Source: Candidatus Thioglobus sp.
GTDB taxonomy: Bacteria; Pseudomonadota; Gammaproteobacteria; PS1; Pseudothioglobaceae
Length of the DNA: 64,000 bases
Reading direction: 5' to 3'
NCBI GenBank assembly: GCA_028345055.1
Contig: JAOMCO010000003.1
Location: 1 to 64,000 of the forward strand
Positions 45,647 through 63,267 of the stretch are shown piece by piece. A program made the translations under genes and the position numbers. Each line of letters opens with the position of its first letter. The stretch's first letter is position 1. A model generated the notes under the pieces. It saw only the letters and a list, made by a program, of their open reading frames with translations, was not told where the DNA came from and did no database searches.

Positions 45647-45660
45647 TTTTTATGGTATTA

Positions 45661-45685
45661 AGCGGTCTTTATGGCCGCTTTTTTA
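45661..45685 (+). terminator. Terminator after tRNA-Thr, overlapping the 3' end of the opposing acyl-CoA ligase gene
   Basis: AGCGGTC-TTTAT-GGCCGCT followed by T-run. Confidence 0.75.
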
Positions 45686-47300
45686 TTGCTAACTCTCGAA
45701 GTACAAATTTTTGAACTTTGCCAGTAGATGTTTTGGGAATAATATCAAAAATAAATTTACGAGGAATTTTAAAAGAAGCCATATTGTCTCTACACCATTG
45801 GCTTAATTCTTCATCAGTAGCCTCACACGATTCTTTGATTTGAACAAATGCACAAGGCGTTTCTCCCCATTTTTGATCTGGCATTGCAACCACTGCAGCA
45901 ACTTCGACAGCGGGGTGTTTATATAAAACCTCTTCAATTTCAATTGATGATATATTTTCTCCTCCAGAAATAATAATGTCTTTTGAGCGATCCTTTAGTT
46001 GTATATAACCATCTTCATGAATGACACCTAAGTCTCCAGAATGAAACCAGCCACCCATGAAAGATTCTTCAGTGGCTGACTTATTTTTAAGATAACCTTT
46101 CATAACTATATTGCCCCTAAACATAACCTCGCCAATAGTTTTTCCATCTCGTGGGACAGGCTTCATTGTGCTCGGATCCATGACATCTAAAGACTCGAGC
46201 GGCAGATACCGAACGCCTTGCCTTGCCTTTAAGGAGGCCTGTTCATTTTCATTGAGCTCATTCCAATCTTGATGCCACTCATTTACTACTGCCGGGCCGT
46301 AAGTTTCAGATAGCCCATATAGGTGGGTAATATTAAATCCCGCAGCCTTCATGTTGGTTAAAACAAACTCAGGTGGAGGCGCTGCAGCGGTAAAAAATTC
46401 AACAGTATTTTCTAGTAATTTTTTTTCACTGTCATTAGCTGAGAGTATTGTTGACATGACAATAGGCGCCCCACATAAATGAGTAACCTTATTTTTTTTA
46501 AGAGAGCTCCAAATTGGCGCTGCTCTAACCTGCCTTAAACAAACATGCGTCCCTATAATGGCTGACATTGTCCAAGGAAAGCACCAGCCATTGCAGTGAA
46601 ACATTGGCAGTGTCCATAGATAGACAGAATGTTTCTTGATTGATGCAATCATTGCATTACCTTGAGCTAGAAGATAGGCACCGCGATGATGTGAGACAAC
46701 GCCTTTTGGATTGCCTGTAGTTCCAGAAGTGTAGTTAAGTGAAATTGCATCCCATTCATCTTCAGGCATAAGCCACTGAAAGTTTTCATCACCCTCTAAT
46801 AAAAAGGATTCATACTCAGTTGCGTTAGGCAGTGATTCACTAACTTGATGCTCACTATCATTGTAGTCAATCAGTATTGGGCTGACTTGTGCAATCTTAA
46901 GCGAGGATTTAGCAGTCTCTAAAAATTCTCGATCTACTATAAGAGCCTTTGAATTGGAATGATCTAATTGGTAGGCAATCGTTTCAGGATCTAGTCGCGT
47001 GTTAATGCTATGTAAAACAGCGCCACACATTGGAACACCATAATGAGACTCCAGCATAGCAGGCGTATTCGACAAAATCACTGAAACTGTATCCCCTCTG
47101 ATAATTCCTTTTCTTGATAGCGCCGATGCTAGTCTCAAAGAGCGTGAATAAAATTCGTGGTAGTTTCGCTCAAGTGATCCGTGAACTATGGCAGTGTGCT
47201 GTGGATATACATCAGCTGCCCTTTCTAGAAAGCTTATAGGGGTTAGAGGCTGATAATTAGCTGGATTGCGATCTAAGTCAGTACTGTAGGGGTTGCTCAT
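45669..47300 (-). CDS. AMP-forming acyl-CoA synthetase (possible DmdB-type methylmercaptopropionyl-CoA ligase)
   Basis: LNYTSGTTGNPKGVV AMP-binding motif, C-terminal PKTSTGKVQKFVLRE; context with DmdA-like gene. Confidence 0.85.
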   Translation of the reverse strand: MSNPYSTDLDRNPANYQPLTPISFLERAADVYPQHTAIVHGSLERNYHEFYSRSLRLASALSRKGIIRGDTVSVILSNTPAMLESHYGVPMCGAVLHSINTRLDPETIAYQLDHSNSKALIVDREFLETAKSSLKIAQVSPILIDYNDSEHQVSESLPNATEYESFLLEGDENFQWLMPEDEWDAISLNYTSGTTGNPKGVVSHHRGAYLLAQGNAMIASIKKHSVYLWTLPMFHCNGWCFPWTMSAIIGTHVCLRQVRAAPIWSSLKKNKVTHLCGAPIVMSTILSANDSEKKLLENTVEFFTAAAPPPEFVLTNMKAAGFNITHLYGLSETYGPAVVNEWHQDWNELNENEQASLKARQGVRYLPLESLDVMDPSTMKPVPRDGKTIGEVMFRGNIVMKGYLKNKSATEESFMGGWFHSGDLGVIHEDGYIQLKDRSKDIIISGGENISSIEIEEVLYKHPAVEVAAVVAMPDQKWGETPCAFVQIKESCEATDEELSQWCRDNMASFKIPRKFIFDIIPKTSTGKVQKFVLRELAIKKRP

Positions 47301-47311
47301 TTTGGACGGTG

Positions 47312-48139
47312 CTATTTATCTTGCCACTTTGGCTGGCGCTTTTCAATAAAGGCATCAATGCCCTCTTTTGCATCTTGTTTTAGCATGTTATCAACCATTA
47401 CCTGGGATGTATATTCATAGGCCTCAGATAGAGGCATATCTTTCTGGCCATAAAAAGCCTTTTTACCTGTCTCTAAAACCATGCTTGATTTTGAGGCTAT
47501 TAAAGTAGCCATTTTTAGAGTTTTTTGAGTTAGAGCTTGACGCTCTTCAACACGATTAATAAGACCAATTCTTTTAGCTTTTTGGGCATCAATCATCTCG
47601 CCAGTTAGGAGCATTTCCATAGCCGCCTTGTTAGAGACATTTCTTGAAAGAGCAACCATCGGCGTTGAGCAGAATAGACCAATATTAACCCCTGGGGTTA
47701 CAAATCGAGCAGACTCACTAGCAATTGCGAGATCGCAGCATGCAACTAGTTGGCATCCAGCCGCCGCCGCAACACCAGAAACTTCTGCAATCACTGGTTT
47801 TGGATGGTTAACAATCTGCTGCATAAGAGCAGAGCAAGATGAAAAAACCTGCGAAAAGTATGACAGCCCACCATCATCATTTTTCCTTCCTTCAGACATT
47901 TGCTTCAGGTCATGTCCTGAGCAAAAAGCTGGTCCGTTAGCAGAAATTATGATTACTTTAGTGGCTGGATTTTTTTCAGCCTTGCTGAGTGCAGTAGCTA
48001 TAGAAGACATCATCTCTTCAGATAGAGCATTTCTTCTTTTAGAGTCATTGAGTGTTAACCGCAAGACTCCATTGTCAGTCATTAACTCAATTAAAATTGA
48101 TTCGCTAGAATTGCTTTTGTTGTTTCCATTGCTGCTCAT
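47312..48139 (-). CDS. Enoyl-CoA hydratase/isomerase family protein
   Basis: Crotonase fold: NDSKRRNALSEEM, GPAFCSGHDLKQM, GVAAAAGCQLVACCDLAIA. Confidence 0.9.
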   Translation of the reverse strand: MSSNGNNKSNSSESILIELMTDNGVLRLTLNDSKRRNALSEEMMSSIATALSKAEKNPATKVIIISANGPAFCSGHDLKQMSEGRKNDDGGLSYFSQVFSSCSALMQQIVNHPKPVIAEVSGVAAAAGCQLVACCDLAIASESARFVTPGVNIGLFCSTPMVALSRNVSNKAAMEMLLTGEMIDAQKAKRIGLINRVEERQALTQKTLKMATLIASKSSMVLETGKKAFYGQKDMPLSEAYEYTSQVMVDNMLKQDAKEGIDAFIEKRQPKWQDK

Positions 48140-48179
48140 AATATAAGCTCCATATTAGCAGAATCGTATTGCCAACTTA

Positions 48180-48632
48180 TTAAATGTTTATATTGACCTC
48201 TACTTCTGAGTCTAAAGTGTTGGCAATAAAACAGTATCGATGCGCCCTATCATGCATTTTATCTAATTCTTCACTGCTCACTTCAAAACCATTATCAAAT
48301 GAAACCACTGGATTTAAGTCTATACGATTAACTACCATTTGTTTTTTACTATTTTTCCCTAAGTGGCCTACAGCATGATCACTGTAGGACGATACGGGCC
48401 ATTTAGTTTTTGCTGCAAGAGCTAAAAATGTCATCATGTGGCAGCTACTTAAAGAGGAGGCAAGCGCTTGCTCTGGATTCGTGTTGCTATCTGAGCCACC
48501 CCAGTCTGGAGCAGTATCTGCTTTAACTGAATACTGTTCATTGTATTTAACCTCATGCTCGCTAGAAAATTTTCCAGGTAGTAGCTCAGCTTCTTTTCTA
48601 TTCCAGGTTAAGTCGACGGATAATTCAGACAT
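48180..48632 (-). CDS. OsmC family protein
   Basis: NPEQALASSLSSCHMMTFLALAAK, AHRYCFIANTL (two conserved Cys). Confidence 0.9.
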   Translation of the reverse strand: MSELSVDLTWNRKEAELLPGKFSSEHEVKYNEQYSVKADTAPDWGGSDSNTNPEQALASSLSSCHMMTFLALAAKTKWPVSSYSDHAVGHLGKNSKKQMVVNRIDLNPVVSFDNGFEVSSEELDKMHDRAHRYCFIANTLDSEVEVNINI

Positions 48633-48662
48633 AATTTTTCTCCAGAGCCATTAGCATTTTTT

Positions 48663-49802
48663 TTAAGATTTTGAAGCAATTTTTTTCTTAGGGTCATAGA
48701 ACGGTTTTTGCACTACCTTGGCGGGATAATTGCCCTCAGGTGTTTTAACTTCCCCAATTGTATCTATAGCCGAAAATTCAATATCCATAATAGCGAGTGC
48801 AATATTTTTGTCAAGTCGAGGTGTGTAGACAGCAGAAGTTACATACCCTACTTCTTTTGAATTAACAAGAATAGGCCAATAAGTTGTGTTTGGGTGTTGG
48901 AGTGGCGAGCATGAAATCTCAAGTCCAACTTGGCTTCTCTTAACACCATCAGATTGAATTCTTTTAAGCGCATCTTTACCTATAAAGTCTGCGTCCATTT
49001 CGAGATCAATAAGCCTTCCAAGTCCAAGCTCAAAGGGGTTTACAGTGCAGTCCATATCTGCTTGATAAGAAAGCATTCCGCCCTCTATTCTTCTAATGGT
49101 TGATGTGTGTCCAGGAACCAATCCCATTGGCTCTCCAATCTTCATGATATGATCCCATAACTCAGTACCTCGAGTGCCATCACGCAGGAAGATTTCATAG
49201 CCTAGTTCACTTGACCATCCTGTTCTAGAGACGATAAGTGGAATTCCATTAAGCTCAAACTCTTCAAACCAGTAATACTTAAGACCATCAATCCACTCTC
49301 CAAAGATTGCTCTTGCAATGTCACCTGATTTAGGGCCTTGAAGTTGAAGTGGTGAAACGTCTGGTTCGCACAAGTTAACATTGAGTTCAGAGTTGACTGC
49401 AACACCCTTAGCCCACATTAAAATATCGCTATCCGCCAAAGATAGCCAGAAATGATTTTCTGCAAGCCTTAATAAAACAGGGTCATTTAATACACCACCA
49501 TTTTCATCAGTAATTAGGACATATTTGCATTGGCCAATAGCACATTCAGAAAGATTTCTTGGAGTTAATAATTGGACAAATTGAGCAGCATCAGGGCCAG
49601 TTATTTCAACTTGACGCTCAACAGCAACGTCACAGAGAATTGCATCATTGACAAGGTTCCAAAAGTTTTGAACAGGGTCACCAAAATCTCTAGGGATATA
49701 CATATGGTTGTAGACAGAAAAGCCTTGAGCTCCCCAGCGCACAGTTGCATCAAAATAGGGAGACTTTCTTACCTGAGTTCCAAAACTGAATTCTTTTTTC
49801 AT
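48663..49802 (-). CDS. GcvT-like THF-dependent methyltransferase, candidate DMSP demethylase (DmdA-like)
   Basis: VYNHMYIPRDF, CDVAVERQVEITGPDA, LTPRNLSECAIGQCKY, NDPVLLRLAENHFWLSLADSD, RRIEGGMLSY. Confidence 0.75.
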   Translation of the reverse strand: MKKEFSFGTQVRKSPYFDATVRWGAQGFSVYNHMYIPRDFGDPVQNFWNLVNDAILCDVAVERQVEITGPDAAQFVQLLTPRNLSECAIGQCKYVLITDENGGVLNDPVLLRLAENHFWLSLADSDILMWAKGVAVNSELNVNLCEPDVSPLQLQGPKSGDIARAIFGEWIDGLKYYWFEEFELNGIPLIVSRTGWSSELGYEIFLRDGTRGTELWDHIMKIGEPMGLVPGHTSTIRRIEGGMLSYQADMDCTVNPFELGLGRLIDLEMDADFIGKDALKRIQSDGVKRSQVGLEISCSPLQHPNTTYWPILVNSKEVGYVTSAVYTPRLDKNIALAIMDIEFSAIDTIGEVKTPEGNYPAKVVQKPFYDPKKKIASKS

Positions 49803-49883
49803 GGCTAGTAATAGGTGATTAACAGAATTCGCAGATAATACACATTTTTCAATATGTTGCAGGTGTTTTTTTGGCGCTTTTAG

Positions 49884-50969
49884 TTACTCGATGAAGTTCG
49901 TTTTTCGGGTTAGCTCTGAGAGAATTTCAGGACCATCAGATCTAAGAATTACAATTTCCTCAAGCCTAACTCCAAATCTTCCTTGGAGATAAATTCCTGG
50001 CTCAATTGAAAATACCATTCCCTCATCCAAAACGACCTCAGAAGTTGCTGTGATATATGGGGGCTCATGAATATCGATTCCAAGGCCATGGCCAGTTCGA
50101 TGTACAAAAAATTCACCATAGCCGGCTTCAGTAATAACACCTCTTGCGGCTGCGTCAACCTCTTTGGCCATAACTCCGGGCTTTGCTGCTGCCATAGCAG
50201 CCTGAACAGCCCTCTCAACAACAGCATGAACCTCATGATAGCCTTCTGGCGGTTTTCCAAGCACTGACATTCTTGTCATGTCACTCGGAAAAGTTCCTTT
50301 TCTCCCGCCAATATCAATTAATACTACGTCACCATTTTCTACTTTGCGATTTCCAGTGTGATGGTGTGGAAAAGCACCATTAGGTCCTGAGCCTACAATA
50401 CAAAACTGAGGTTTAGCTCCTTCAGATATAAAGTGTTTATTGATTGCTTCCCCAATCTCGAGTTCTGTAGCTCCTTCCTTGATTGCTTTAAAACCGGCCT
50501 GCATGGCCCTGTCATCAATCAATGCATTTTCTTTAAGATTTATGAATTCATTATTATCTTTCCTCATTCTAAGTGCGCCAACTGTAGAGGCAGTAAATTC
50601 ATAAGATGGATTAGATAAAGATTCAAGGAGAATCAAAGCAAAATGTGAGCGCATGGCTTCATCAATTGCAATGTGTTTGGCAGCAGAAGAGCCAGTGAAT
50701 TCTAGTGCTTCATTTAAAGCTTTATCTGGACCATTTTCGTCATTCCAGCAGCGCATTGGAATATCAGTTTTCGCTCTTATGCCTTCTTCATTTACAGAAG
50801 GCATAAGAAAGGCTTCTTTCTCTTTTCCAATTAAAAGCATACAAGGCCTTTCATCAGGATAAGGATTAAAGCCTAAGAGCCAGTTCATATGAGTACCAGG
50901 GCCTAGAGCAACAAGGTCAACATTGTTATCTCTCATCCGAGTGCGTACAGAATTAATTTTATTTTGCAT
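49884..50969 (-). CDS. M24 family metallopeptidase (Xaa-Pro dipeptidase-like)
   Basis: Metal-ligand motifs IDIGG, SDMTR, HRTGHGLG, SIEPGIY, RLEEIV. Confidence 0.9.
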   Translation of the reverse strand: MQNKINSVRTRMRDNNVDLVALGPGTHMNWLLGFNPYPDERPCMLLIGKEKEAFLMPSVNEEGIRAKTDIPMRCWNDENGPDKALNEALEFTGSSAAKHIAIDEAMRSHFALILLESLSNPSYEFTASTVGALRMRKDNNEFINLKENALIDDRAMQAGFKAIKEGATELEIGEAINKHFISEGAKPQFCIVGSGPNGAFPHHHTGNRKVENGDVVLIDIGGRKGTFPSDMTRMSVLGKPPEGYHEVHAVVERAVQAAMAAAKPGVMAKEVDAAARGVITEAGYGEFFVHRTGHGLGIDIHEPPYITATSEVVLDEGMVFSIEPGIYLQGRFGVRLEEIVILRSDGPEILSELTRKTNFIE

Positions 50970-50982
50970 AGGCTTTTTCTAT

Positions 50983-52653
50983 TTATGCATCCATCATTCC
51001 ATAAACTTCCCTAGCTACTTCTGGAGTAATAAGCTCATTTTTAAGGTCTTCTTTTATCAGTTCTTGGCTTCGAGACTTAGGATCACCTAGGCCACCACCA
51101 TTTCCTGTAACAACTCTAATAACATCATTCTTGCTTAAAGTTAAACCCGATACAAATGCAAATCTTTCACTCTTACCTTTCAGAGGTAGGTATTCAACGT
51201 AATTTGATGAGCCTTCATTGCCACCATCAAGAGACCATGCTGGAAATTTTGATCTTGTATATCCAGCAGTAAGATATCCATCTTCAGCACGAATACGGTA
51301 ATCCATAACAATGCCTCTTCCTCCAGAATATTTGCCTTCACCCCCTGGCTCTGTATTTAGAGACATTTGATCAACCCATAGACCATTTCTAGCTTCATTT
51401 ATTTCTGCAGGACAATTGTAGGTTTCACCGTGGAAGCCACAGAACATTGCATTATTTCCATCAGCTCCATTTCGACCACCCCAGCCTCCAACTTGCGCTT
51501 CAACAATAGTGTATTGACGCCCAGTATCAGGATGAGTGCCACCAATAAAGGTTCCACATACTGAGGCAAAATGACCCGCAGATAATCTTTCAGGCATAAA
51601 CTTAGCTAAGCACCTCCACATTAAGTCATAAACTCTCAGCTCAACTTCATAATAGAATCCAAGTGGTGCGGGTTCTTGAGCGTCAAATACAGTTCCAGGC
51701 TCCGTAATAAGTTCTATAGGACGAAAAGAGCCACCATTGCAAGGAGAATATGGGTCGGTCATAGATTTAAAAATCATCTGCGCAGCAATCATTACTCCAT
51801 CTTTTGTGGAATTGACTGGAGATGATAGCTGTTTTGGATTATCTCTTAGGTCAACAGTAAAAAGGTCATCACTAATGGTAATTTTGACATTATAAAAGCT
51901 ACCATCATCTTGCTCTTCAGATAACTCAAATACTCCATTGGTAAGCTTTGACAGTTCTCTTCGAGACGCTTTCTCGCCAAAATCCATAAACTCTATCATA
52001 GCTCTTTCAAAGACATCAGCGCCATATTTTTTAGCTAGCTCTTGAAGTCTTTTTGCTCCAATCCTTACTGCAGCTATTTGTGCCCAAACGTCTCCATATA
52101 TTGTGTCGGGCATTCTTGAGTTCACTATTAAAATATCCATAACAGATTGGATGGTTTCACCTTGGCTTATGACCTTAACAGCAGGAAGCCTAATTCCTTC
52201 TTGAAATATTTCAGTAGCATCTCCAGTTAGTGACCCAGGAGCCATACCACCTACATCAGAATTATGAGCAATATCTGCAGTCCAAGCGATCAGCTTTCCA
52301 TTGGAGAAGACAGGCATTGCAAGTACGATATCATTCAAATGAGTAACACCTCCATAATAGGGGTCATTGGTCATAAAGACGTCACCCTCTTGAATATCGC
52401 CAGGCTTATTGTATTTTTGCAATATCACTTTTACTGCCTTGTCTAGCACTCCAATAAAAGCTGGAATTCCTGCACCAGAAGCTGCAATTTCACCCTCGGC
52501 ATCCATTATTCCGGTGCCCATATCTAAAACTTCATAGATTATTGAGCTCATGGCTGTTTTTCTAATAGAGGCAAACATCTCATCTGCTGTTGCTTGAAGA
52601 GAGCTCTGAATTATTTCGAGAGTTATTGGGTCATATTCTATATTTTTTTTCAT
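50983..52653 (-). CDS. Hydantoinase B/oxoprolinase family protein (HyuB)
   Basis: DPITLEIIQSSLQATADEMFASIRKTAMSSII, GDVFMTNDPYYGGVTHLNDI, GGGLGDP. Confidence 0.93.
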   Translation of the reverse strand: MKKNIEYDPITLEIIQSSLQATADEMFASIRKTAMSSIIYEVLDMGTGIMDAEGEIAASGAGIPAFIGVLDKAVKVILQKYNKPGDIQEGDVFMTNDPYYGGVTHLNDIVLAMPVFSNGKLIAWTADIAHNSDVGGMAPGSLTGDATEIFQEGIRLPAVKVISQGETIQSVMDILIVNSRMPDTIYGDVWAQIAAVRIGAKRLQELAKKYGADVFERAMIEFMDFGEKASRRELSKLTNGVFELSEEQDDGSFYNVKITISDDLFTVDLRDNPKQLSSPVNSTKDGVMIAAQMIFKSMTDPYSPCNGGSFRPIELITEPGTVFDAQEPAPLGFYYEVELRVYDLMWRCLAKFMPERLSAGHFASVCGTFIGGTHPDTGRQYTIVEAQVGGWGGRNGADGNNAMFCGFHGETYNCPAEINEARNGLWVDQMSLNTEPGGEGKYSGGRGIVMDYRIRAEDGYLTAGYTRSKFPAWSLDGGNEGSSNYVEYLPLKGKSERFAFVSGLTLSKNDVIRVVTGNGGGLGDPKSRSQELIKEDLKNELITPEVAREVYGMMDA

Positions 52654-52687
52654 TTGTTCTCCTTGGAGTAGCTATTCGCTACTATAA

Positions 52688-54763
52688 CTATAATTCAATA
52701 TGTATATTTGAATAGCCATCAATATACACTTTATTTTCTGGATGGACAACTGTAGTTGAGCCAGAGTCTTCAATTATTGCAGGACCAATAAATTCCATTC
52801 CTGGTTTAAGTTTTTCTCCGTCATAGAGGGTCGCATTGTGAGAACCTTCAAGGGCATAATCAACCTCCCTCTCACCTTTTCTGGCCTCTTCTTCAGTAGC
52901 ACCACTGCTTGGCATTTCTTTCATTTCAAGTTTGCCCACTTCAGAAGTAGCAACAACATGAATTCCAACAAGCTCAACTGGCATATCAAGTCGATACGTA
53001 TATTCATGCTCATAAGTTTCATGAAATACTCTCCCTATTTCAACTATTTGTTGATCTGTTATCGATCCACTAGAGAGTGGAACCTCTGTTGTGTGCTCCT
53101 GATTCTTATATCTAAAGTTACCATAACGCATGAATTTAATATTTGTCTCTTTTATGCCTTCCAACTTAAATTGAGATATTGCTTGAGACTCAACTTCAGA
53201 AAAGGCTGATTCAATATCAGTTCCGGCGCCTTCAACAAGATCTGCAAGATGCGTAATGAAATAATCACGTCTTAAGTCAGACATCATCATTCCCCATGCT
53301 GAAAATACAGAGGCAGCCGCTGGTATCACAACCTTCTTAACTCCAAGTTCCTGTGCCAAAGCTACTGCATGCATTCCACCTCCACCTCCAAATGCAACTA
53401 ATACAAAATCACGAGGATCAAAACCTCTGTTAAGCGATACTAACTTCAAAGCATTAATCATATTATTATTCGCAATTCGTATAATGCCTCTTGCAGCCTC
53501 AGTAGGAGAAATTCCTAATCCCTTGCCAACCTTTTCTAGAGAAGATTTGGCAGATTTCATATCTGCCTTAATAGAGCCTCCACAAAAGTAATCTTTATTT
53601 ATGCGGCCTAGCTCTATGTTAGCGTCTGTAGTTGTTGCTTCCTCTCCACCTTTGCCATATGACGCTGGACCAGGAATTGCGCCAGCTGATTGAGGGCCTA
53701 CATGAAGCTTATCAAATTCATCAACCCATGCTATAGATCCACCACCATTTCCAATCTCAACTAGATCAACGACAGGAACCATTATTGGATATCCAGCACT
53801 TTTTTCATCTCTCTCTATCCAGTAATTTGTCATGATTTTGACTTTACCATTCTCAATCAGAGAGCATTTAGCTGTTGTTCCACCTATATCTAGAGCAATT
53901 ACATTTGGTTCATTAATTAATTTTCCAAGCTCTGCAGCGCCCCAAAATCCAGATGCTGGACCAGACTCTACCATTGTTATTGGAATTCGAGAGACTGACT
54001 CTAAGGAGTCCACTCCACAATTAGATTGCATAATATAGGGACTACCTTTAAAACCTTTTTCACTTAATCCAGATGCAAGTTGCCTTAAATATTTTTCTGC
54101 TGCCGGTTGAACATAAGCTGATAGAACTGCTGTGCTCGTCCTTTCATACTCTCTCCATTCTCTAGTAATTTGATGAGAGGCAACTACTGAAACTTCAGGC
54201 CACAACTGTTTTATCTCTTTCATAACAATCTCTTCATGAGCAAAATTTGCATAGCTATGTAGAAAACAAATAGCAACTGCTTCAACTCCTTCTGATTTGA
54301 AGTCATCCAAAATATTTGGCAATGGAGACATATCTAGAGGTTCACTTTCTTCACCTTGGTAGCTCATTCTTCCTGATAGTTCACGTCGAAGATATCGAGG
54401 AACAAATGGGACGGGTTTTTGATAATGCAGATTAAAGAAGTCGGGACGATTGCCACGAGCTATTTCGAGACTATCACGAAATCCTTTGGTTGTAATTAAT
54501 CCAACTTTTACCCCTTTCCTTTCAGTGAGTGAGTTGATAATAACAGTTGTTCCATGTGCTAGAAAGTCTATCTCAGAGGGGTTTACATTCCCTTTTTCGA
54601 GAACGTTAAGAACTCCTGTTTCAAAATCTGGTGGAGTTGTATCAGACTTTGCAGTAATAACTGAGTGTTGGCCACTCTTAATATTGGTTTCAAAGCAAAC
54701 TAGGTCAGTAAATGTTCCACCAACATCTGTTGCAACACGTATTGTTGATTTTTTCATATCCAT
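52688..54763 (-). CDS. Hydantoinase A/oxoprolinase family protein (HyuA)
   Basis: RVATDVGGTFTDLV, HGTTVIINSLTERKGVKVGLITTKGFRD, ALDIGGTTAKCSLI, GGGGGMHAVALA. Confidence 0.93.
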   Translation of the reverse strand: MDMKKSTIRVATDVGGTFTDLVCFETNIKSGQHSVITAKSDTTPPDFETGVLNVLEKGNVNPSEIDFLAHGTTVIINSLTERKGVKVGLITTKGFRDSLEIARGNRPDFFNLHYQKPVPFVPRYLRRELSGRMSYQGEESEPLDMSPLPNILDDFKSEGVEAVAICFLHSYANFAHEEIVMKEIKQLWPEVSVVASHQITREWREYERTSTAVLSAYVQPAAEKYLRQLASGLSEKGFKGSPYIMQSNCGVDSLESVSRIPITMVESGPASGFWGAAELGKLINEPNVIALDIGGTTAKCSLIENGKVKIMTNYWIERDEKSAGYPIMVPVVDLVEIGNGGGSIAWVDEFDKLHVGPQSAGAIPGPASYGKGGEEATTTDANIELGRINKDYFCGGSIKADMKSAKSSLEKVGKGLGISPTEAARGIIRIANNNMINALKLVSLNRGFDPRDFVLVAFGGGGGMHAVALAQELGVKKVVIPAAASVFSAWGMMMSDLRRDYFITHLADLVEGAGTDIESAFSEVESQAISQFKLEGIKETNIKFMRYGNFRYKNQEHTTEVPLSSGSITDQQIVEIGRVFHETYEHEYTYRLDMPVELVGIHVVATSEVGKLEMKEMPSSGATEEEARKGEREVDYALEGSHNATLYDGEKLKPGMEFIGPAIIEDSGSTTVVHPENKVYIDGYSNIHIEL

Positions 54764-54767
54764 TCTC

Positions 54768-55256
54768 TTATGTTTTTTTTATTAGGTTAAGTAAAAAGCA
54801 TGAAATAGCTGGAAGCTTGATTTTTTCAAGCTCATTAATTTTTTCTAAGGTAAAGTAATTTTCTTTATCAAGACAGTTAACTGTTCCCAATAATTGTCCA
54901 TCTACAATAATGGGTAAGTTGCACACAGACTGACAACCTAAGCTTTGTATTAATTTGAAGTCTGAAAATACCTTAGCTATATCATCAATATTATTAGCAA
55001 CAAAAGACTTATGGCCATCCAAAACAGTTTCGGTCCAAGATGATTTTTCAATTGGTTTAATACCAGAGACTGGGTATTCAATTGGCATATTTGAATATAC
55101 TCTTTGAGCCACTGCATTTGGAATGTCAAATGTAGTGAGTGTAAAAAGCTTTATTCCTACTGTCTTGTTAACAAATTCATAGAATTTGTCAAATGCATCT
55201 TGGGGATGATTATTTTTTTTCGATAAAGAGTCTAATAATTCAGAATATGCAGTCAT
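54768..55256 (-). CDS. Stand-alone GAF-domain protein
   Basis: 162 aa, GAF pattern ending LGCQSVCNLPIIVDGQLLGTVNCLDKENYF. Confidence 0.75.
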   Translation of the reverse strand: MTAYSELLDSLSKKNNHPQDAFDKFYEFVNKTVGIKLFTLTTFDIPNAVAQRVYSNMPIEYPVSGIKPIEKSSWTETVLDGHKSFVANNIDDIAKVFSDFKLIQSLGCQSVCNLPIIVDGQLLGTVNCLDKENYFTLEKINELEKIKLPAISCFLLNLIKKT

Positions 55257-55269
55257 TTATAATCCTGTA

Positions 55270-55953
55270 CTAATTTTCCTTCATGTGAAAGTTCAGATCC
55301 ATACTGTGATCTTTAGAAAAAATTAGATTTCCACGACAATCAAAAATTCCAGGAATCTCCTTGTTAATCTCATTGTCTCCAAAAACATTCATTGTGCAAA
55401 CATGCAAAAGAGTAGTTACTTTGTCAGTATGATTCCACGCTGAATGACTTTTTGATGAGTCAAAATGAAGAGAGTCGCCTGTTTCAAGAATATTGACCTT
55501 ACCATCAATATAAATAGTAATAGCTCCTTCTAGTATGTAAAAAAATTCTTCACCTTCATGACTTATAGACTCTGTTCTATGACCAGGCAATTCATGAATG
55601 ATTACACTATTAAGAGTATGTCCAGGAAAGGAGTCAGATAGACGCTCATATTGAAGTCCATTTTTATTAATCGTATAGACATCGCGCTCTTGATGTCTTG
55701 TTATCGATGATTTACTTTTGGGCTGGCTAAGAAAATTAGAAACATCAGACTTGAGAAAATTTGCAATAGCAGTCAATGAGGTCAGTGATGGTGAGGTTAA
55801 CCCTCGTTCAACTTGAGAAATAAATCCTATTGAGAGCCCTGATGAAGTAGCTACCTCTTTCATCGATAGTTTAAGTTCCTTTCGTCTAAGTCTTAGTCTT
55901 TCTCCTAAAGAATTTTCTGGATCTTCTTGAATTATTGCAGAGTTTTTTTTCAT
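55270..55953 (-). CDS. XRE-family regulator with C-terminal cupin domain
   Basis: HTH LGERLRLRRKELKLSMKEVATSSGLSIGFISQVERGLTSPSLTSLTAIA; cupin EGEEFFYILEGAITIYIDGK. Confidence 0.93.
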   Translation of the reverse strand: MKKNSAIIQEDPENSLGERLRLRRKELKLSMKEVATSSGLSIGFISQVERGLTSPSLTSLTAIANFLKSDVSNFLSQPKSKSSITRHQERDVYTINKNGLQYERLSDSFPGHTLNSVIIHELPGHRTESISHEGEEFFYILEGAITIYIDGKVNILETGDSLHFDSSKSHSAWNHTDKVTTLLHVCTMNVFGDNEINKEIPGIFDCRGNLIFSKDHSMDLNFHMKEN

Positions 55954-55973
55954 ATGAGGCTGAGCGTAAAAAT

Positions 55974-56067
55974 TTTAGTATAGGTAAAATATATTAACAT
56001 ATTTTTTATTTAAATTAATCTATATGACTAAAAAAATATCAAAATTTAGTATAACTAAAATATATTA
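55974..56067. promoter_or_regulatory. Putative operator pair: two 23-bp near-identical repeats in divergent promoter region
   Basis: TTTAGTATAGGTAAAATATATTA (55974-55996) and TTTAGTATAACTAAAATATATTA (56045-56067). Confidence 0.65.
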
Positions 56068-56148
56068 GTCAAAATTATAAAAGTGTGTTAATATTAATCT
56101 CCAGTTAATAAAGTTAACTAGGATTATTTTTTTTATAGGAGAGATAAA

Positions 56149-57150
56149 ATGAATGTTAAATATAGCAAAAAGCCTATAGGTATTATTGCATCAATCTTTT
56201 TCGCAATTTTATTTACATTTAGTTCAAATGCGGTTTATGCAAAGAGCTATGAAGTGGCTTATTTATCAGCAAGTTCTGCCAATACTTGGCTTGGAGCATC
56301 TGTTAAAGCAATGGAGGCTGTTGCTGGTAATAATGATATAAATATTACTGAGTTTGATGCACAGTTTGATCCTGCAAAACAAACATCACAACTTCAAGAT
56401 GCAATTGCATCAGGTAAATATCAAGGCATTGTTGTATGTGCAATTTATGGGGTTGGATTGATTCCTGATATTGAAGAAGCAATAGCTGCGGGTATTGAGA
56501 TTGTAGTTCTTAATCAAATTGTTGGTCCTGATTTAACTACATCAGATCCTCAAGTTGATGGAATAGCTGCATCTGTTTTAGCTTCACCTTACCGTTCGGG
56601 TACTCGTCATGGAGAGCTAACAGTTAGAGCTTGTGAAGGTAATGACAATTGTGAAGTTGTCTTCATTTATGGAATTAAAGGAATACCATTAGATGATGCA
56701 ATTAGACAAGGGTTTGATGATGTTATTTCGCAACACCCTTCAATTAAGGTTGTAGCTGAAGGTGAAGGCAAGTATCTAGGACCAGATGGTGGTATCGCAG
56801 CAACACAGGATATTCTTAGCATGAATAGCTCATTTGATGTAATGGTTGGTGCTGATCAATCAATACAGGGAGCTGCAATTGTATTAGCTGATGAGGGTAT
56901 GACAGGCCAAGTTAAATTAATTGGTTTGGGCGGCTCTGCCCCTGCAATTGAGGGGATAGCGAATGGTACATGGTTTGGTGGCGTCTATGGCGCGCCAGGA
57001 GATGAGGGAACATTTGCTATGGAAGCAATGGTTGATGCATTAAAAAATGGTGTTGATCAGGGTGGCATTGACCCACTAACTACTGCTCCGGATAATGGCC
57101 TAATAACATCTGAAAATGTTTCTAAATTTTCAGCTCAGTGGGATGGCTAA
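56149..57150 (+). CDS. Sugar-type ABC transporter periplasmic substrate-binding protein
   Basis: Signal peptide; type 1 PBP fold (QDAIASGKYQGIVV, VMVGADQSIQGAAIVLADEG). Confidence 0.88.
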   Translation: MNVKYSKKPIGIIASIFFAILFTFSSNAVYAKSYEVAYLSASSANTWLGASVKAMEAVAGNNDINITEFDAQFDPAKQTSQLQDAIASGKYQGIVVCAIYGVGLIPDIEEAIAAGIEIVVLNQIVGPDLTTSDPQVDGIAASVLASPYRSGTRHGELTVRACEGNDNCEVVFIYGIKGIPLDDAIRQGFDDVISQHPSIKVVAEGEGKYLGPDGGIAATQDILSMNSSFDVMVGADQSIQGAAIVLADEGMTGQVKLIGLGGSAPAIEGIANGTWFGGVYGAPGDEGTFAMEAMVDALKNGVDQGGIDPLTTAPDNGLITSENVSKFSAQWDG

Positions 57151-57162
57151 TAGATAAACTTT

Positions 57163-57199
57163 AAAACCCTTAGTATTCATAAGGTCTGCTAAGGGTTTT
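57163..57199 (+). promoter_or_regulatory. Intercistronic stem-loop downstream of SBP gene (attenuating terminator/mRNA stabiliser)
   Basis: Perfect 11-bp inverted repeat AAAACCCTTAG...CTAAGGGTTTT, 15-nt loop. Confidence 0.75.
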
Positions 57200-57305
57200 G
57201 CCCTCTTTAAAAGCATTAAATACTAGATTAATTTTGGTTTACTATAGGAAACTATAGTTGATTAGTAATCCTTATAAAAACTAGACTATTTTTAAACTTT
57301 TAACT

Positions 57306-58109
57306 ATGAAAAGTAATAATTCAGCACACAAAATCATGTATTTAAACCCAGTAGGGTTTGATGCTTATGATGCGTTTTTTGCAGAAATGATAAGAAAGAA
57401 CAAGTTTCCAACTTCAGAAGTTCAAGTAACATCACTTTCTCCATCAGTGGGGCAAATGGATAATCTAGAGTATCGAACTTATAATGCACTTATAGCTACA
57501 GATCTTATTAAGGCAACAAGACAAGCATCAGTCGAAGGATTTGATGCACTAATTATTGGATGTTTTTACGACCCATTCTTATTAGATGCTAGAGAAATTT
57601 CTGGCGATATGGTTGTTGTTGGACCATGCCAATCTTCGATCGAAATCGCATTAAAGTTATCCAACTCTTTCTCTGTTATTATAGGACAAAAAAAATGGCA
57701 ACATGAAATGCAATCGACAGTCATAGAATATGGTTATGGAGATCATCTGGCCTCATTTAGAGACGTTGGTATGACTGTTCCAGAGTTTCAAAAAGACCAT
57801 AAGCTAACAGAAAAAAACTTAATAGAGGCAGCTCGTCTAGCAATAGAAGAAGATGGCGCAGAATCTATAATATTAGGCTGTACATTGGAATTTGGTTTTT
57901 TTGAAAAAATTCAAAATAAATTTAATATTCCAGTCATAGATCCTTCAATAGCCGCATTAAAACAAGCAGAGCAGGCCGCTATTTTAAAGAATCAATTTGG
58001 CTGGAAGCCTTCAAGGCAATGGAGCACTGAAGCCCCACCTGAAAATGATATTAATCGCTTTGGTTTGTTCAAAGAAGACTATCATTTTGGAAATCGTATA
58101 ATTGTTTAA
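57306..58109 (+). CDS. Aspartate/glutamate/hydantoin racemase family protein
   Basis: Paired catalytic-Cys motifs ALIIGCFYDP and IILGCTLEF. Confidence 0.88.
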   Translation: MKSNNSAHKIMYLNPVGFDAYDAFFAEMIRKNKFPTSEVQVTSLSPSVGQMDNLEYRTYNALIATDLIKATRQASVEGFDALIIGCFYDPFLLDAREISGDMVVVGPCQSSIEIALKLSNSFSVIIGQKKWQHEMQSTVIEYGYGDHLASFRDVGMTVPEFQKDHKLTEKNLIEAARLAIEEDGAESIILGCTLEFGFFEKIQNKFNIPVIDPSIAALKQAEQAAILKNQFGWKPSRQWSTEAPPENDINRFGLFKEDYHFGNRIIV

Positions 58110-58124
58110 TAAGTATTAAATCCA

Positions 58125-59639
58125 GTGGAAAAACATAACAATAATGCCAAGGCTTTTATTAGTTTTGATAAAGTAAGTAAGAGCTTTGGTGCAACCAAAG
58201 CGCTAATTAACTGCTCTGTATCTTTTGAGGTAGGGAAAATTCATGCCTTGGTTGGAGAGAATGGGGCGGGTAAGTCTACTCTTGGTAAGCTTATTCTTGG
58301 CGTACATAAGCATGATTCAGGCTCTATTAAAATTGATGGAAAGGAGTCTTTTTTGTCTTCACCGAGGGAGTCTGTAAAGCAAGGATTGGTAGGAATTTCA
58401 CAAGAACTGTCATTATTGCCAGACCGGTCAGTTGTTGATAATATTGCCATAGGAAGAGAGACAACTATAGGGCCATTTGTCTCAAACAAGCAGACACTTG
58501 AAAAAGTTGAAGCCGTAATGGAAAAGTATGATCTCTATATTGAGCCTAGTAGAGTTGTTGGTTCGTTATCTGTTGCAGACCAACAAAAAGTTGAAATTCT
58601 TAGGGCGCTCAATACTAATGCCCGCTTAATAGTTTTTGATGAGCCAACTGCTCGTTTAGCAAGTCATGAAGCTGACCAACTCCATAATTTAGTCCACTCT
58701 TTGGCAAAGTCTGGAACTGCAGTTGTATACATTTCTCATTTTCTCGAGGAAGTATTAAAAATTTCAGATACTATTACTTTATTAAGAAATGGTGAAAAAG
58801 TAAGAACTGAGCCAACATCCAAGGAAACCAAAAAAAGCCTTATTGAGGGAATGACTGGAAGAGATGCTGGAAATTTATTCCCAAAAAAACCAAAAATTAA
58901 TGAAAAAAGTGAGGTGCTTTTGAAAGTAAAGAGTCTTTCTCGTGCAAACGAATTTAAGGATGTTTCGTTTGAAATTAAAAAAGGAGAGATCCTTGGAATT
59001 GCTGGATTAGTAGGATCTGGGCGTAGCGAGCTTGCACATGCTATATATGGGAATAGAATGCCAGATAGTGGCTCTATAGAATTAAATGGTAAAGAATTTA
59101 TAACTAAGAATGTGGCTCACTCAATAAAAAATGGTATGGCAATGGTTCCAGAATCAAGAAGAGACCAGGGTCTAATTTTAGAGCGTTCTCTATTAGAAAA
59201 TACATCATTGCCATATTTGGAGCAATTTACATCCTGGATTTATGGCTTAAATAAAAATGATGAATATAGTGAGGTAGATGATAGTTGTAAAACAACTATG
59301 ATAAAACATGGTGGGCTAGAGAAAGAGGTTCAATATTTATCAGGGGGAAATCAACAAAAAGTTTTATTTGCTAGGGCTGCAATGAATAAACCTAAGTTGC
59401 TTATAGCAGATGAGCCAACTCGTGGCGTTGATATTGGAGCCAAACAGGTAATTTATGAGCTCATTTCTCAATTATCAAAAGTAGGTGAAGCAGTTTTATT
59501 AATTTCATCAGAAGTAGAAGAGATTATTGGTATGGCACATCGGACACTAGTTATGTCTCGTGGGAAAGTTGTAGCCGAATTAAAAGGAAATCAAATAACA
59601 AAGTCTGCAATTATGGAGGCCGCTTTTGAGCAGGATTAA
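58125..59639 (+). CDS. Sugar-type (RbsA-like) ABC transporter ATP-binding protein, two ABC domains, GTG start
   Basis: GENGAGKSTLGKLI, FDEPTARL, second domain GLVGSGRSELAHAIYG, LSGGNQQKVLFARA. Confidence 0.93.
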   Translation: MEKHNNNAKAFISFDKVSKSFGATKALINCSVSFEVGKIHALVGENGAGKSTLGKLILGVHKHDSGSIKIDGKESFLSSPRESVKQGLVGISQELSLLPDRSVVDNIAIGRETTIGPFVSNKQTLEKVEAVMEKYDLYIEPSRVVGSLSVADQQKVEILRALNTNARLIVFDEPTARLASHEADQLHNLVHSLAKSGTAVVYISHFLEEVLKISDTITLLRNGEKVRTEPTSKETKKSLIEGMTGRDAGNLFPKKPKINEKSEVLLKVKSLSRANEFKDVSFEIKKGEILGIAGLVGSGRSELAHAIYGNRMPDSGSIELNGKEFITKNVAHSIKNGMAMVPESRRDQGLILERSLLENTSLPYLEQFTSWIYGLNKNDEYSEVDDSCKTTMIKHGGLEKEVQYLSGGNQQKVLFARAAMNKPKLLIADEPTRGVDIGAKQVIYELISQLSKVGEAVLLISSEVEEIIGMAHRTLVMSRGKVVAELKGNQITKSAIMEAAFEQD

Positions 59640-59643
59640 TAAT

Positions 59644-60582
59644 ATGAATAATGCATTAGAGTATTCAAAAAAACATGGTATTGCCATAATCACTATTTTA
59701 CTTTTTATTGTATTAGCATTAACAACTGATGGTTTTTTTACTGAGAGAAACCTTAGAAATATTCTAGACCAGCAATCTACGATTCTTATTGCTGCATCAT
59801 TTATGACAATTGTCATTATTTCAGGTAATTTTGATATTTCTGTTTCATCAATTTTTGTGGTTTCACCTCTATTTGCCTTATATGTTGAGAATGCAACTGG
59901 AAATATATTTTTGGCTGTAATCGCTGGAATCCTTATTGGGCTAGCAATGGGAGCATTTAATGCTATTGTTGTAACGTACTTTAAAGTTAATTCGTTCATA
60001 GCAACTTTAGCAACCTCGTTTATGTTTTTTGGGCTAGGATACTTAATAAGCGATAGGTCTTTAATGAGACCCATGGGAGATGCTTACCAACAAATTGCAC
60101 GAACAAAGTTTTTTGATATTACTTCTGCTACCTGGCTTGCAATAGGCGTTGTAATCATAGCAAGTATAATATTAACGCGAACGAGATTTGGCCGTAATGT
60201 TTTTGCAACTGGTGGAAATCAAGAGGCTGCTCGTTTAGCAGGTGTAAGTGTGTCTAGAGTTCAAGCTGCAACTTTTATTCTACTTGGAGGTGCTTCTGCG
60301 TTAGCAGGTATTGTGAGTTCTTCAAGATCTATTTCTGCACAACCATCAGATGATTTTAGCTTCGTATTTGCTGTGTTAACTGCTGTAATTGTTGGAGGCA
60401 CATCTATTGCTGGAGGTAAGGGAGCTATTTGGAGAACAGTAGCAGCTGCTTTCTTTTTGGCCTTCATGAGTAATGGTTTTAATTTGAATCAAATCGACCC
60501 ACTTTGGCAAAGAATAATACTTGGACTTGTAATCGTTATTGCTGTTGCAATCGATTCGTGGTCACAACGAAAAAATGCTTAA
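59644..60582 (+). CDS. Sugar-type (RbsC-like) ABC transporter permease
   Basis: Polytopic, GNFDISVSSIF, ATGGNQEAARLAGVSV, AVIVGGTSIAGGKGAIW. Confidence 0.92.
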   Translation: MNNALEYSKKHGIAIITILLFIVLALTTDGFFTERNLRNILDQQSTILIAASFMTIVIISGNFDISVSSIFVVSPLFALYVENATGNIFLAVIAGILIGLAMGAFNAIVVTYFKVNSFIATLATSFMFFGLGYLISDRSLMRPMGDAYQQIARTKFFDITSATWLAIGVVIIASIILTRTRFGRNVFATGGNQEAARLAGVSVSRVQAATFILLGGASALAGIVSSSRSISAQPSDDFSFVFAVLTAVIVGGTSIAGGKGAIWRTVAAAFFLAFMSNGFNLNQIDPLWQRIILGLVIVIAVAIDSWSQRKNA

Positions 60583-60613
60583 ATAATATGATGATTAAAG
60601 TTGGAGAATCTAG

Positions 60614-62158
60614 ATGATTAGAATTGGTGTAGACGTTGGCGGAACTAATACTGACGCAGTAGTAATGAAAGGTGAAAAATTTTTGGGAGGTGCTAAAAGC
60701 CCTACTACTAAAGATATCTTAACTGGAGTTGAAAATGCAATTCATGGAGCCTTAGTTGAGGCAAAGACATCCTCTGATAGTGTGAAAGTTTTAATAATAG
60801 GCACTACTCATTTTGTGAATGCTTTAGTTCAGCGGACTAATCTGGCGCAAACTGGTTTAATAAGGATGTGTCTACCTTCAGGCTCATCAATCCTTCCTTT
60901 TGCTGACTGGCCAAAATCTCTTGTTGGTGGTATGAAAGGAACTTACCAGCTTATTAAAGGCGGTTATGAAATGACTGGTAGTGAAATATCTCAACTTGAT
61001 CATGATGAGCTTATAGGTGCAGCTAAAAGGCTAAGTGATACTGGTTGTAATCAAATTGCAATTAGTTCAGTCTTTGCAACCGTTAGAGGTGATATGGAGG
61101 AAGAGGCTTTAGAAATATTAACTAAAGCAATGCCAGATCTTAGCGTTACTCTTAGCAAGAGTATTGGTGGTATGGGGCTTCTTGAAAGAGAGAATGCGGC
61201 AATTATTAATGCTTCTTTGAGACCACTTGCGACAGAAGTTGTAGATTCTTTCAAGCTTCTTCAGAAAAGCTTAAACCTTTCATGTCCAATGTTTTTTACT
61301 CGTAATGATGGAACCTTGATTGAGGCAAAAGAGGTTGTAGAGCTTCCTGTTCTGACTTTTGCTTGTGGGCCAACTAATTCAATGAGAGGAGCTGCATTTC
61401 TTTCAGGCTTAAAAGATGCTTTAGTGGTTGATGTTGGTGGGACCACAACAGATGTTGGAGAGGTTAAAGATGGATTTCCTAGGTTGGCCGGCACTTCTGT
61501 TATGGTTGCTGATGTCAGGACTAACTTTGCAATGCCAGACGTAATAAGCATTGGCCTAGGAGGTGGCTCTATTGTTGCAAATAAAGAGCCCATGGCTATT
61601 GGACCAGTTTCTGTAGGACATGAACTTTTACAAAAAGCAGCCGTATTTGGAGGTGATACTTTAACTGCAACGGACCTTGCAGTTGCAGCAGGGCGATGTA
61701 AAGTTGGAACTAATTCACCACCATCTATAAGTTCTATTGATAAGCTTATTGAGATTTTAGATAAGATGGTTTCAGATCAAGTTGCAAGAGCTAGAACAAG
61801 CAATAAGTCCATTCCAGTAATAGCTGTTGGCGGTGGAAGTGTAATGATGCCCTCTGAGATTGATGGATTAGAAGTCATCACACCTAAACATAATGACCTT
61901 GCTAATGCAGTTGGTGCAGCTATTGCTCAAGTCAGTGGACAGGTATCTCGTGTAGTGTTGCTCAATGACAATGTTGATCGTGAAAGTGCTATAAAAGAAG
62001 TGACAGAAGAGGCTACAAGTCTTGCAGTTAAGAGACATGCTGACCCTAAATCTATTACAATCTTAACGCAATCGGATGTGCCACTTTCATATTTGCCAGG
62101 TAATAATTTATTAGTTAACGTTACCGTAGTTGGTGACCTTTTAATGGAGGAATTGTAA
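60614..62158 (+). CDS. Second hydantoinase/oxoprolinase-like protein (short HyuA type)
   Basis: IRIGVDVGGTNTDAVVM, LVVDVGGTTTDVGEV, ISIGLGGGSIV; 514 aa. Confidence 0.88.
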   Translation: MIRIGVDVGGTNTDAVVMKGEKFLGGAKSPTTKDILTGVENAIHGALVEAKTSSDSVKVLIIGTTHFVNALVQRTNLAQTGLIRMCLPSGSSILPFADWPKSLVGGMKGTYQLIKGGYEMTGSEISQLDHDELIGAAKRLSDTGCNQIAISSVFATVRGDMEEEALEILTKAMPDLSVTLSKSIGGMGLLERENAAIINASLRPLATEVVDSFKLLQKSLNLSCPMFFTRNDGTLIEAKEVVELPVLTFACGPTNSMRGAAFLSGLKDALVVDVGGTTTDVGEVKDGFPRLAGTSVMVADVRTNFAMPDVISIGLGGGSIVANKEPMAIGPVSVGHELLQKAAVFGGDTLTATDLAVAAGRCKVGTNSPPSISSIDKLIEILDKMVSDQVARARTSNKSIPVIAVGGGSVMMPSEIDGLEVITPKHNDLANAVGAAIAQVSGQVSRVVLLNDNVDRESAIKEVTEEATSLAVKRHADPKSITILTQSDVPLSYLPGNNLLVNVTVVGDLLMEEL

Positions 62159-63231
62159 TGAGTATTAAAAAACTAACCTTTGTTGATAACAAATCGATTA
62201 ATGCTGTTGCTATTGGAGGCGCAGTTCTTGGCTCAGGTGGAGGTGGAGATCCTTATGTTGGAAAATTAATGACTCAACAAAGTATTAACGAGACTGGAGG
62301 TGTCAAGGTTATTGACATAGAAACTTTGCCTGATGATGCTTTAATTTTGCCTATTGCTATGATGGGCGCCCCAACAGTCATGGTTGAAAAGTTTCCATCT
62401 GGCAACGAGTTTGCTCAACTAATTCCAATGATTGAAAAAATGCTGACTAAGCCAGTTGCAGCAATTTTATGCATTGAGGCTGGCGGCTTAAATTCTACCA
62501 TTCCTTTTGCTGCTGCATCAAAATTAGGTCTTCCAATAATAGACGGTGATGCTATGGGCAGGGCTTTTCCTGAGTTGCAGATGGTAACTTTTACTTTGGG
62601 AGGTATAAGTGCAACTCCTATGGCTATGGTTGATGAAAAAGGTAATGGCTGTAATTACGATACAATCAGTAATGTATGGACTGAGAAACTTGCACGTGCA
62701 ATAACTATTGAAATGGGGGGCTCTGCAATGTGCAGTCTTTACCCAGTTTCTGCTAAAGATTGCAAAAAATATTTGATTAAAGGAAGCTTGTCTTTGATTC
62801 ATCATATTGGATCAATTATTGAAAAACATAGTTTCAACGCTTACCAAATACTTGTTAAAGAATTAAATGGAAAGCACCTTTTCCAAGGAAGAGTGAGAGA
62901 TGTTGAAAGATTTAGTGAAGGGGGCTTTAATCGAGGCGTAGTTCGACTTGAAGGTATAGATGATTTTGCTAGTCGAGAGGCAAAAGTTGATTTTCAAAAT
63001 GAATTTTTAGTTGCAATGGAGGGCGACAATGTCCTTGCTACTACACCAGATTTGATTTGCATGTTTGACGCTAATACTGGCGATCCTGTTACTGCTGAAA
63101 CAATAAAATATGGGTTGGCTATTAATGTACTTGGGTTGCCATGTGACCCAATTTGGCAAAGTAAGGAGGCAATCGATATGATTGGACCTCGCTACTTTAA
63201 ATACGATATAGACTATAAGCCTCTAAAATAA
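62158..63231 (+). CDS. DUF917 family protein (S-methyl thiohydantoin desulfurase-like)
   Basis: AIGGAVLGSGGGGDPYVGKLM, GLPIIDGDAMGRAFPELQM, PDLICMFDANTGDPVTAE; coupled to HyuA-like gene. Confidence 0.85.
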   Translation: MSIKKLTFVDNKSINAVAIGGAVLGSGGGGDPYVGKLMTQQSINETGGVKVIDIETLPDDALILPIAMMGAPTVMVEKFPSGNEFAQLIPMIEKMLTKPVAAILCIEAGGLNSTIPFAAASKLGLPIIDGDAMGRAFPELQMVTFTLGGISATPMAMVDEKGNGCNYDTISNVWTEKLARAITIEMGGSAMCSLYPVSAKDCKKYLIKGSLSLIHHIGSIIEKHSFNAYQILVKELNGKHLFQGRVRDVERFSEGGFNRGVVRLEGIDDFASREAKVDFQNEFLVAMEGDNVLATTPDLICMFDANTGDPVTAETIKYGLAINVLGLPCDPIWQSKEAIDMIGPRYFKYDIDYKPLK

Positions 63232-63267
63232 ATTTTATTAAAGATTTTCAAAGAGAAACTAATATTT

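Follow-up and report, generated by a model that had tools for sequence, protein, structure and literature searches.

The window analysed here is a stretch of 64,000 nucleotides (nt), the initial 64 kb of a 117-kb contig (JAOMCO010000003.1) from Candidatus Thioglobus sp., a marine sulfur-oxidising bacterium of the SUP05 clade whose genome (1.31 Mb) is 74% complete. Our subject is a locus at positions 45669 to 63231, in which two arms of genes diverge around an XRE-cupin regulator and which contains a hydantoinase-type HyuA/HyuB pair. All 15 open reading frames (ORFs) listed by an earlier sequence-only reading are present where it had placed them, and the Pfam and NCBIfam profile scores on which our domain labels are based back its family labels, except that the GAF domain of one small protein is borderline (22.3 bits against a cut-off of 22.4). 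The family labelled DUF917 is currently named S-Me-THD (PF06032/PF20906). The features of the two arms that concern the pathway are as follows (ABC, ATP-binding cassette).

55270 to 55953, minus strand: XRE-cupin regulator (Cupin_2 and HTH_3), divergent from the importer
55970 to 56067, no strand assigned: candidate operator pair, AAATTTTAGTATAGGTAAAATATATTA and AAAATTTAGTATAACTAAAATATATTA, 71 bp apart
54768 to 55256, minus strand: small GAF-domain protein (borderline GAF; invariant LGC motif)
52688 to 54763, minus strand: HyuA1, putative ATP-binding subunit of a ring-opening enzyme (three Hydantoinase_A domains)
50983 to 52653, minus strand: HyuB, putative metal-binding hydrolase subunit (Hydantoinase_B, 501 bits)
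49884 to 50969, minus strand: M24 peptidase, Xaa-Pro dipeptidase-like by nearest structures and metal ligands
56149 to 57150, plus strand: periplasmic substrate-binding protein, RbsB type (Peripla_BP_4)
57306 to 58109, plus strand: Asp/Glu-racemase-family putative epimerase (nearest structure OpaE, 9qbx)
58125 to 59639, plus strand: ABC importer ATPase, RbsA type (a homologue adjoins HyuA1 in genome G833)
59626 to 60582, plus strand: ABC importer permease, RbsC type (BPD_transp_2; listed with a TTG start, the true start may be downstream)
60614 to 62158, plus strand: HyuA2, a short HyuA paralogue paired with DUF917 (Hydant_A_N and partial Hydantoinase_A)
62158 to 63231, plus strand: DUF917/S-Me-THD-family protein (PF06032 and PF20906)

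Together with four further genes described below, the minus arm has gaps of 11, 40, 30, 81, 13, 34, 4 and 13 nt, as had been reported. In the plus arm a larger gap of 155 nt separates the substrate-binding protein and racemase genes, and the HyuA2 and DUF917 genes overlap by 1 base. The divergent XRE-cupin and substrate-binding protein genes are 195 bp apart. A promoter scan gave no excess of sites over shuffles, a terminator scan gave little excess, and the GC content at 54–60 kb is slightly low (about 35–36% versus about 40%), with no clear boundary.

HyuA1 has the ASKHA ATP motifs, which read DVGGTFTD, DIGGT and GxxPGP in its sequence and correspond to those defined for subunit A from CapA (DxGGTxxD, D(V/I/M)GGT and GxxPGP; PMC8453981), and the Asp-His-Asp-His metal ligands of HyuB align with those of CapB (6yra_B). 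The two-subunit arrangement, ATP motifs and metal site are shared with CapAB caprolactamase, 5-oxoprolinase and N-methylhydantoinase (PMC8453981, PMC6061476). Caprolactamase is the closest curated family, but the scores of 526 and 236 bits (NF050156/NF050157) are far below the equivalog cut-off of 1000, and window-type HyuAB, unlike these three enzymes, has around it an Xaa-Pro dipeptidase, a racemase and, in certain relatives, genes of proline oxidation. A tree of 40 HyuA sequences, whose deep part is unsure and has long branches, places the window protein in a 24-row clade (support 100/99) together with proteins of Parageobacillus, Planococcus, Thermus and Novosphingobium. The HyuA proteins of Paracoccus, Aminobacter and Leisingera lie outside this clade, and their neighbourhoods show neither a racemase nor an Xaa-Pro peptidase. 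Those of Paenarthrobacter, Arthrobacter and Rhodococcus also lie outside, despite matching neighbourhoods, so that the function would either be older than the clade or have been recruited more than once.

Among the 83 genomes of the family comparison, HyuA1 (>80% identity) and DUF917 are found in the same four, and the chance of two independent 4/83 draws coinciding is about 1 in 1.8 million, a figure that kinship among the genomes raises. In G010 and G047, both incomplete, the substrate-binding protein gene likewise diverges from the side with GAF and HyuA. The DUF917 gene of G031 is decayed, with in-frame stops, and lies on a different contig from the Hyu genes (L185:15797-16318); HyuA1 (truncated by the contig end), HyuB and M24 remain open frames there. 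Other loci combine the same parts in different orders: an XRE-cupin regulator, Dpp importer, GAF protein, HyuA, HyuB, racemase and M24 all run in one direction in G761, a GAF protein and Rbs-type importer run into HyuA-HyuB in G833, and G767 has HyuA2, DUF917, a TonB receptor, an NCS1-type permease, HyuA, HyuB and an M19 dipeptidase. Racemase homologues occur in 13 plasmid records, all 13 of which have HyuA genes within about 10 kb, and annotated plasmids carry parts of the module in Roseateles, Ketogulonicigenium, Thermus, Parageobacillus, Novosphingobium, Planococcus, Arthrobacter, Paenarthrobacter and the archaeon Natrononativus.

That the arms are independent, the finding which the sequence-only reading had named as speaking against it, is contradicted by the four shared genomes and by the presence of the racemase, the Rbs-type importer or HyuA2/DUF917 at HyuAB in distant loci. 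The two arms most likely make up one pathway that imports a chiral cyclic amide and opens its ring, and to this extent the earlier interpretation stands. As judged from gene linkage, the XRE-cupin regulator, GAF protein, HyuA, HyuB, M24, racemase, importer and HyuA2/DUF917 constitute a single modular pathway, of which the importer is, by the same comparison, an exchangeable part; in relatives its place goes to a Dpp-type ABC importer, or else to an NCS1-type permease, an MFS transporter or an OPT transporter, in some cases accompanied by a TonB receptor.

The peptidases beside HyuAB give clues to the substrate. The nearest structures to the M24 protein are an archaeal dipeptidase and Xaa-Pro peptidases, and its active site is intact, with metal ligands (D219, D230, H294, E323 and E337) that are invariant in 11 homologues. 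An M24 Xaa-Pro peptidase lies inside the HyuAB cluster in Rhizobium, Roseateles, Qingshengfaniella, Ketogulonicigenium, Thermus, Parageobacillus, Novosphingobium and Planococcus, and an Xaa-Pro peptidase is in the cluster for eight of the 12 plasmid genera with close HyuA1 homologues (Devosia sp. A8/3-2 being pooled with Devosia). Among 25 records whose HyuA1 homologues are close, 10 have their best M24 match in the same cluster; the M24 list includes none of the 25 records that come next, whose HyuA is more distant. G833 and Paenarthrobacter have an amidohydrolase instead, which among curated families comes nearest to an Xaa-Pro dipeptidase of the amidohydrolase type (about 230 bits; cut-off 500), and the M19 enzyme of G767 is again a dipeptidase. 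The Xaa-Pro dipeptidases beside HyuAB belong to two unrelated folds, and this exchange between unrelated enzymes that share a functional name suggests a dipeptide as the HyuAB product.

Genes of proline metabolism recur at the same clusters. PruA and proline dehydrogenase genes adjoin HyuAB-M24 in Parageobacillus (Bacillota) and the Rbs-type ABC-HyuA-HyuB genes in Rhodococcus (Actinomycetota), a bifunctional PutA gene adjoins the cluster of Paenarthrobacter (Actinomycetota), and a proline-racemase-family gene is found at the cluster of Devosia. The window genome has a proline dehydrogenase, although in the window itself no proline-oxidation genes are linked to the locus.

The nearest solved structure to the racemase is OpaE (9qbx, 121.8 bits), and C86-F87 and C192-T193 align with C90-F91 and C199-T200 of OpaE, so that the cysteine pair is kept. 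The GCFYD core and GCTxE are invariant in 12 homologues spanning Proteobacteria, Thermus, Bacillota, Actinomycetota and an archaeon, with the exception of one G-to-A change before the first cysteine. OpaE acts as an epimerase on a ring system derived from a peptide, and its relative NozR, of the same superfamily and two-cysteine Asp/Glu racemase fold, isomerises a diketopiperazine (PMC12661438, PMC10156859). Both of these enzymes serve biosynthesis, whereas the window racemase lies in a catabolic-looking cluster; we predict that it is an epimerase of the OpaE/NozR type.

From the families, catalytic residues, operon linkage, co-occurrence, dipeptidase replacement and proline-oxidation adjacency described above, we infer a substrate, a series of reactions and their regulation. 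With somewhat better than even confidence, we read the locus as a catabolic pathway for cyclic dipeptides that contain proline (2,5-diketopiperazines), or for proline cyclic amides much like them. The Rbs-type ABC importer would take up the cyclic compound, and the two-cysteine racemase would invert an alpha-carbon, which would make either stereoisomer usable. HyuA1 would activate the lactam with ATP and the metal site of HyuB would hydrolyse it to a linear X-Pro dipeptide, which the M24 peptidase would split, and the proline would enter the ordinary proline-oxidation route. A proline cyclic dipeptide is preferred because the dipeptidases, the proline genes and the kinship of the racemase all fit it, and do not fit a hydantoin or 5-oxoproline. 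The wider proposal, that the multi-phylum HyuA/HyuB clade is the long-missing ATP-dependent cyclic-dipeptide hydrolase, which together with an epimerase and a prolidase serves both stereo-forms of proline diketopiperazines, has in our judgement about an even chance of being correct.

Several points weigh against a proline cyclic dipeptide. About a third of the clusters in the clade appear to have no nearby dipeptidase (G133, A. vitis, G678/G784, G816/G728, G085 and Mycetohabitans), and proline-oxidation genes are found at only three clusters, those of Paenarthrobacter and Rhodococcus being outside the 24-row HyuA1 clade. HyuA2/DUF917 has no step in the proposed scheme. The M24 and racemase families also act on ectoine, creatine, allantoin and hydantoins, and Rbs-type importers are best known for sugars. 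M24 is found without HyuAB in several Pseudothioglobus-type loci, and is therefore not tied to ring opening alone. A set of Dpp importer, GAF protein, XRE-cupin regulator and Xaa-Pro peptidase also occurs without HyuAB in several bacteria; in Phyllobacterium, Limimaricola and Marinovum (L206, L207 and L208) its regulator type, GAF protein and M24 are as in the window but, unlike the window, it has no HyuAB, racemase or DUF917. By its gene content this set looks like a module for the use of linear X-Pro dipeptides, and its existence suggests that a pathway for linear X-Pro served as the base for building the cyclic-dipeptide one.

A different substrate, a hydantoin or thiohydantoin (for example a ring derived from ergothioneine or creatinine), would require a hydantoin racemase, HyuAB acting as an ATP-dependent hydantoinase and DUF917 acting as a thiohydantoin desulfurase. 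DUF917 is in the thiohydantoin desulfurase family, the racemase is in the allantoin/hydantoin racemase superfamily, the nearest solved HyuA structure is named N-methylhydantoinase, and NCS1-type permeases are present in some clusters. However, DUF917 reaches 109 and 94 bits against S-methyl thiohydantoin/thiohydantoin desulfurase equivalog cut-offs of 450 and 440, about a quarter of what is needed, and a known desulfurase is not favoured. No carbamoylase was recognised in the HyuAB neighbourhoods examined, and the recurrent Xaa-Pro dipeptidases and proline-oxidation genes are left unaccounted for. An ergothioneine/urocanate route is also not favoured, since no urocanase-family gene was found in the three incomplete genomes G000, G010 and G047. 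The (thio)hydantoin substrate suggested by the sequence-only reading is therefore unlikely, and less probable than a cyclic dipeptide. Slightly less probable again is an arrangement in which two arms under a shared regulator handle two cyclic amides, with HyuAB and M24 acting on cyclic dipeptides and the Rbs-type ABC importer and HyuA2/DUF917 on a hydantoin-like ring. HyuA2/DUF917 does occur without nearby HyuAB in several genomes, and in Novosphingobium the operons of the two Hyu pairs are convergent and each has a separate racemase and TonB receptor; but the racemase and Rbs-type importer are found in HyuAB operons that have no DUF917, and both arms share the same four family genomes. A further reading, in which HyuAB would be another 5-oxoprolinase or a lactamase of a general kind, agrees with its family membership and with caprolactamase being the closest curated family. 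We consider it very improbable, as HyuAB reaches about one half and one quarter of the caprolactamase cut-off and the genome has a separate HyuA-domain gene of about 1213 residues, of the fused 5-oxoprolinase kind and present in most of the genus, which from its sequence is the likelier 5-oxoprolinase.

The remaining genes of the minus arm (DMSP, dimethylsulfoniopropionate; CoA, coenzyme A) are as follows.

48663 to 49802, minus strand: DmdA-like GcvT paralogue, placed in a neighbouring unit outside the pathway (below the DMSP-demethylase cut-off)
45669 to 48632, minus strand: OsmC, enoyl-CoA hydratase and acyl-CoA ligase, same unit as GcvT (gene order conserved without HyuAB)

The sequence-only reading had drawn these genes into a single pathway of 14–15 genes, with tetrahydrofolate-linked demethylation and CoA-thioester chemistry. 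The short gaps throughout the minus arm would agree with this, and so would M24, which in several relatives stands immediately upstream of the GcvT unit. However, 12 of the 14 family genomes with a close GcvT orthologue have no HyuA1, and the GcvT gene was not found in the incomplete genomes G010 and G047, both of which have HyuA1. The order GcvT, OsmC, enoyl-CoA hydratase, acyl-CoA ligase is kept beside SURF1/COX in relatives that have no Hyu genes at that site and recurs in Rhodobacteraceae and other loci, the unit being widespread in marine bacteria, and an Lrp/AsnC-like ORF stands ahead of GcvT in G031, Marivivens and Hellea (read by eye). Because the GcvT unit is conserved without Hyu genes and HyuA1 occurs without GcvT, we divide the locus into two units: gene order indicates that the four genes are an old, separate conserved unit outside the Hyu pathway. 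The proposed co-conservation of all 14–15 genes breaks down in other genomes, where the two are split, and this independent occurrence leads us to reject the whole 15-gene set as one pathway, the least probable of the readings, together with its demethylation and CoA-thioester steps.

The label "DmdA/GcvT-like" holds for the GcvT family and not for DmdA: the window protein, at 365.6, falls below the DMSP demethylase cut-off of 410, which a different gene of the genome, on contig C30, passes with 412. Its closest named relatives are on contigs labelled Candidatus Thioglobus, Pseudothioglobus or SUP05. It belongs to a DmdA-like GcvT family, distinct from DmdA, that shows 69–72% identity across SAR11, Rhodobacteraceae, Halomonas and the window clade and is often trailed by OsmC, enoyl-CoA hydratase and acyl-CoA ligase genes; in SAR11 loci (L055 and L067, about 8600–11100) GcvT comes directly after an ORF that reads, by eye, like isocitrate lyase. 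The Hyu position is occupied in most Pseudothioglobus-type loci by a Dpp-type importer, frequently together with an M24 gene, so that the Hyu genes look, from gene order, like a cassette at a variable spot beside the old unit; G010 still has that importer alongside its Hyu genes. The window (45506-63870) and L039, L041, L043, L117 and L119 share this variable site, between the FtsK/orf200 side and SURF1/COX, where two kinds of Dpp importer, the M24 gene, the Hyu genes or pieces of the GcvT unit come and go.

The 195-bp region between the arms contains two 27-bp elements, 71 bp apart, the second of which includes the palindrome TTTAGT-ATA-ACTAAA. The core of the element has two matches in the window against 0.01 expected, and none elsewhere in the window. 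Both elements are kept in G047; they are not visible in the short gap between the substrate-binding protein and GAF genes of G010, a genome in which, as in G031, no XRE homologue was found. We regard the pair as a candidate operator, and the XRE-cupin protein probably controls both arms from this shared region. XRE-cupin homologues (47–52%) head the HyuAB operons of G271, G133 and G761, and XRE/cupin regulators are annotated in the Roseateles, Thermus and Qingshengfaniella loci.

HyuA2 adjoins DUF917 in the loci examined, and the pair recurs beside HyuAB in the window clade, G767, Novosphingobium, Planococcus and Arthrobacter/Paenarthrobacter. It is perhaps a second ATP-dependent opener of a related ring; DUF917 of the Arthrobacter type is without the conserved GGGGDP stretch. 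The LGC motif of the small GAF protein has an invariant cysteine in an alignment of 10 module members, and GAF proteins with this motif accompany clusters from Actinomycetota to Gammaproteobacteria; the protein is given no step in the proposed scheme.

Cyclic dipeptides are common, resist ordinary peptidases and have been reported as signals and inhibitors. For diketopiperazine-degrading strains, ring opening by "unknown enzymes" followed by a dipeptidase has been described (PMC3852281), an overall scheme like ours for which no genes were identified, and a 2018 study guessed that some annotated 5-oxoprolinases may be cyclic dipeptide hydrolases, naming no gene cluster (PMC6061476). Gene clusters of cyclodipeptide-oxidase-like proteins resemble ours in their enrichment for racemases (PF01177), DUF917 proteins, ABC importers of dipeptides, and peptidases; the passages covered favour hydantoin/allantoin or secondary metabolism and leave HyuA/HyuB pairs, prolidase and proline oxidation unmentioned (PMC11055893), and no oxidase of the kind described there was recognised in window-type clusters. 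We found no named diketopiperazine hydrolase gene, and no gene-level pathway of this kind, in the open-licence papers searched. If our proposal is true, it supplies testable genes for a ring-opening step that has so far had none named there, many "hydantoinase/5-oxoprolinase" operons of cultured bacteria, thermophiles included, would be re-annotated, and a widespread marine clade would have an extra source of carbon and nitrogen.

Two relatives show further variation around HyuA. Mycetohabitans (L198) has a lone close HyuA, with no annotated HyuB, adjoined by recombinase and transposase genes. In G816 a cyclophilin-type protein (L190:13884-14414) follows HyuA-HyuB and an NCS1-type permease, and a similar ORF is present in G728.

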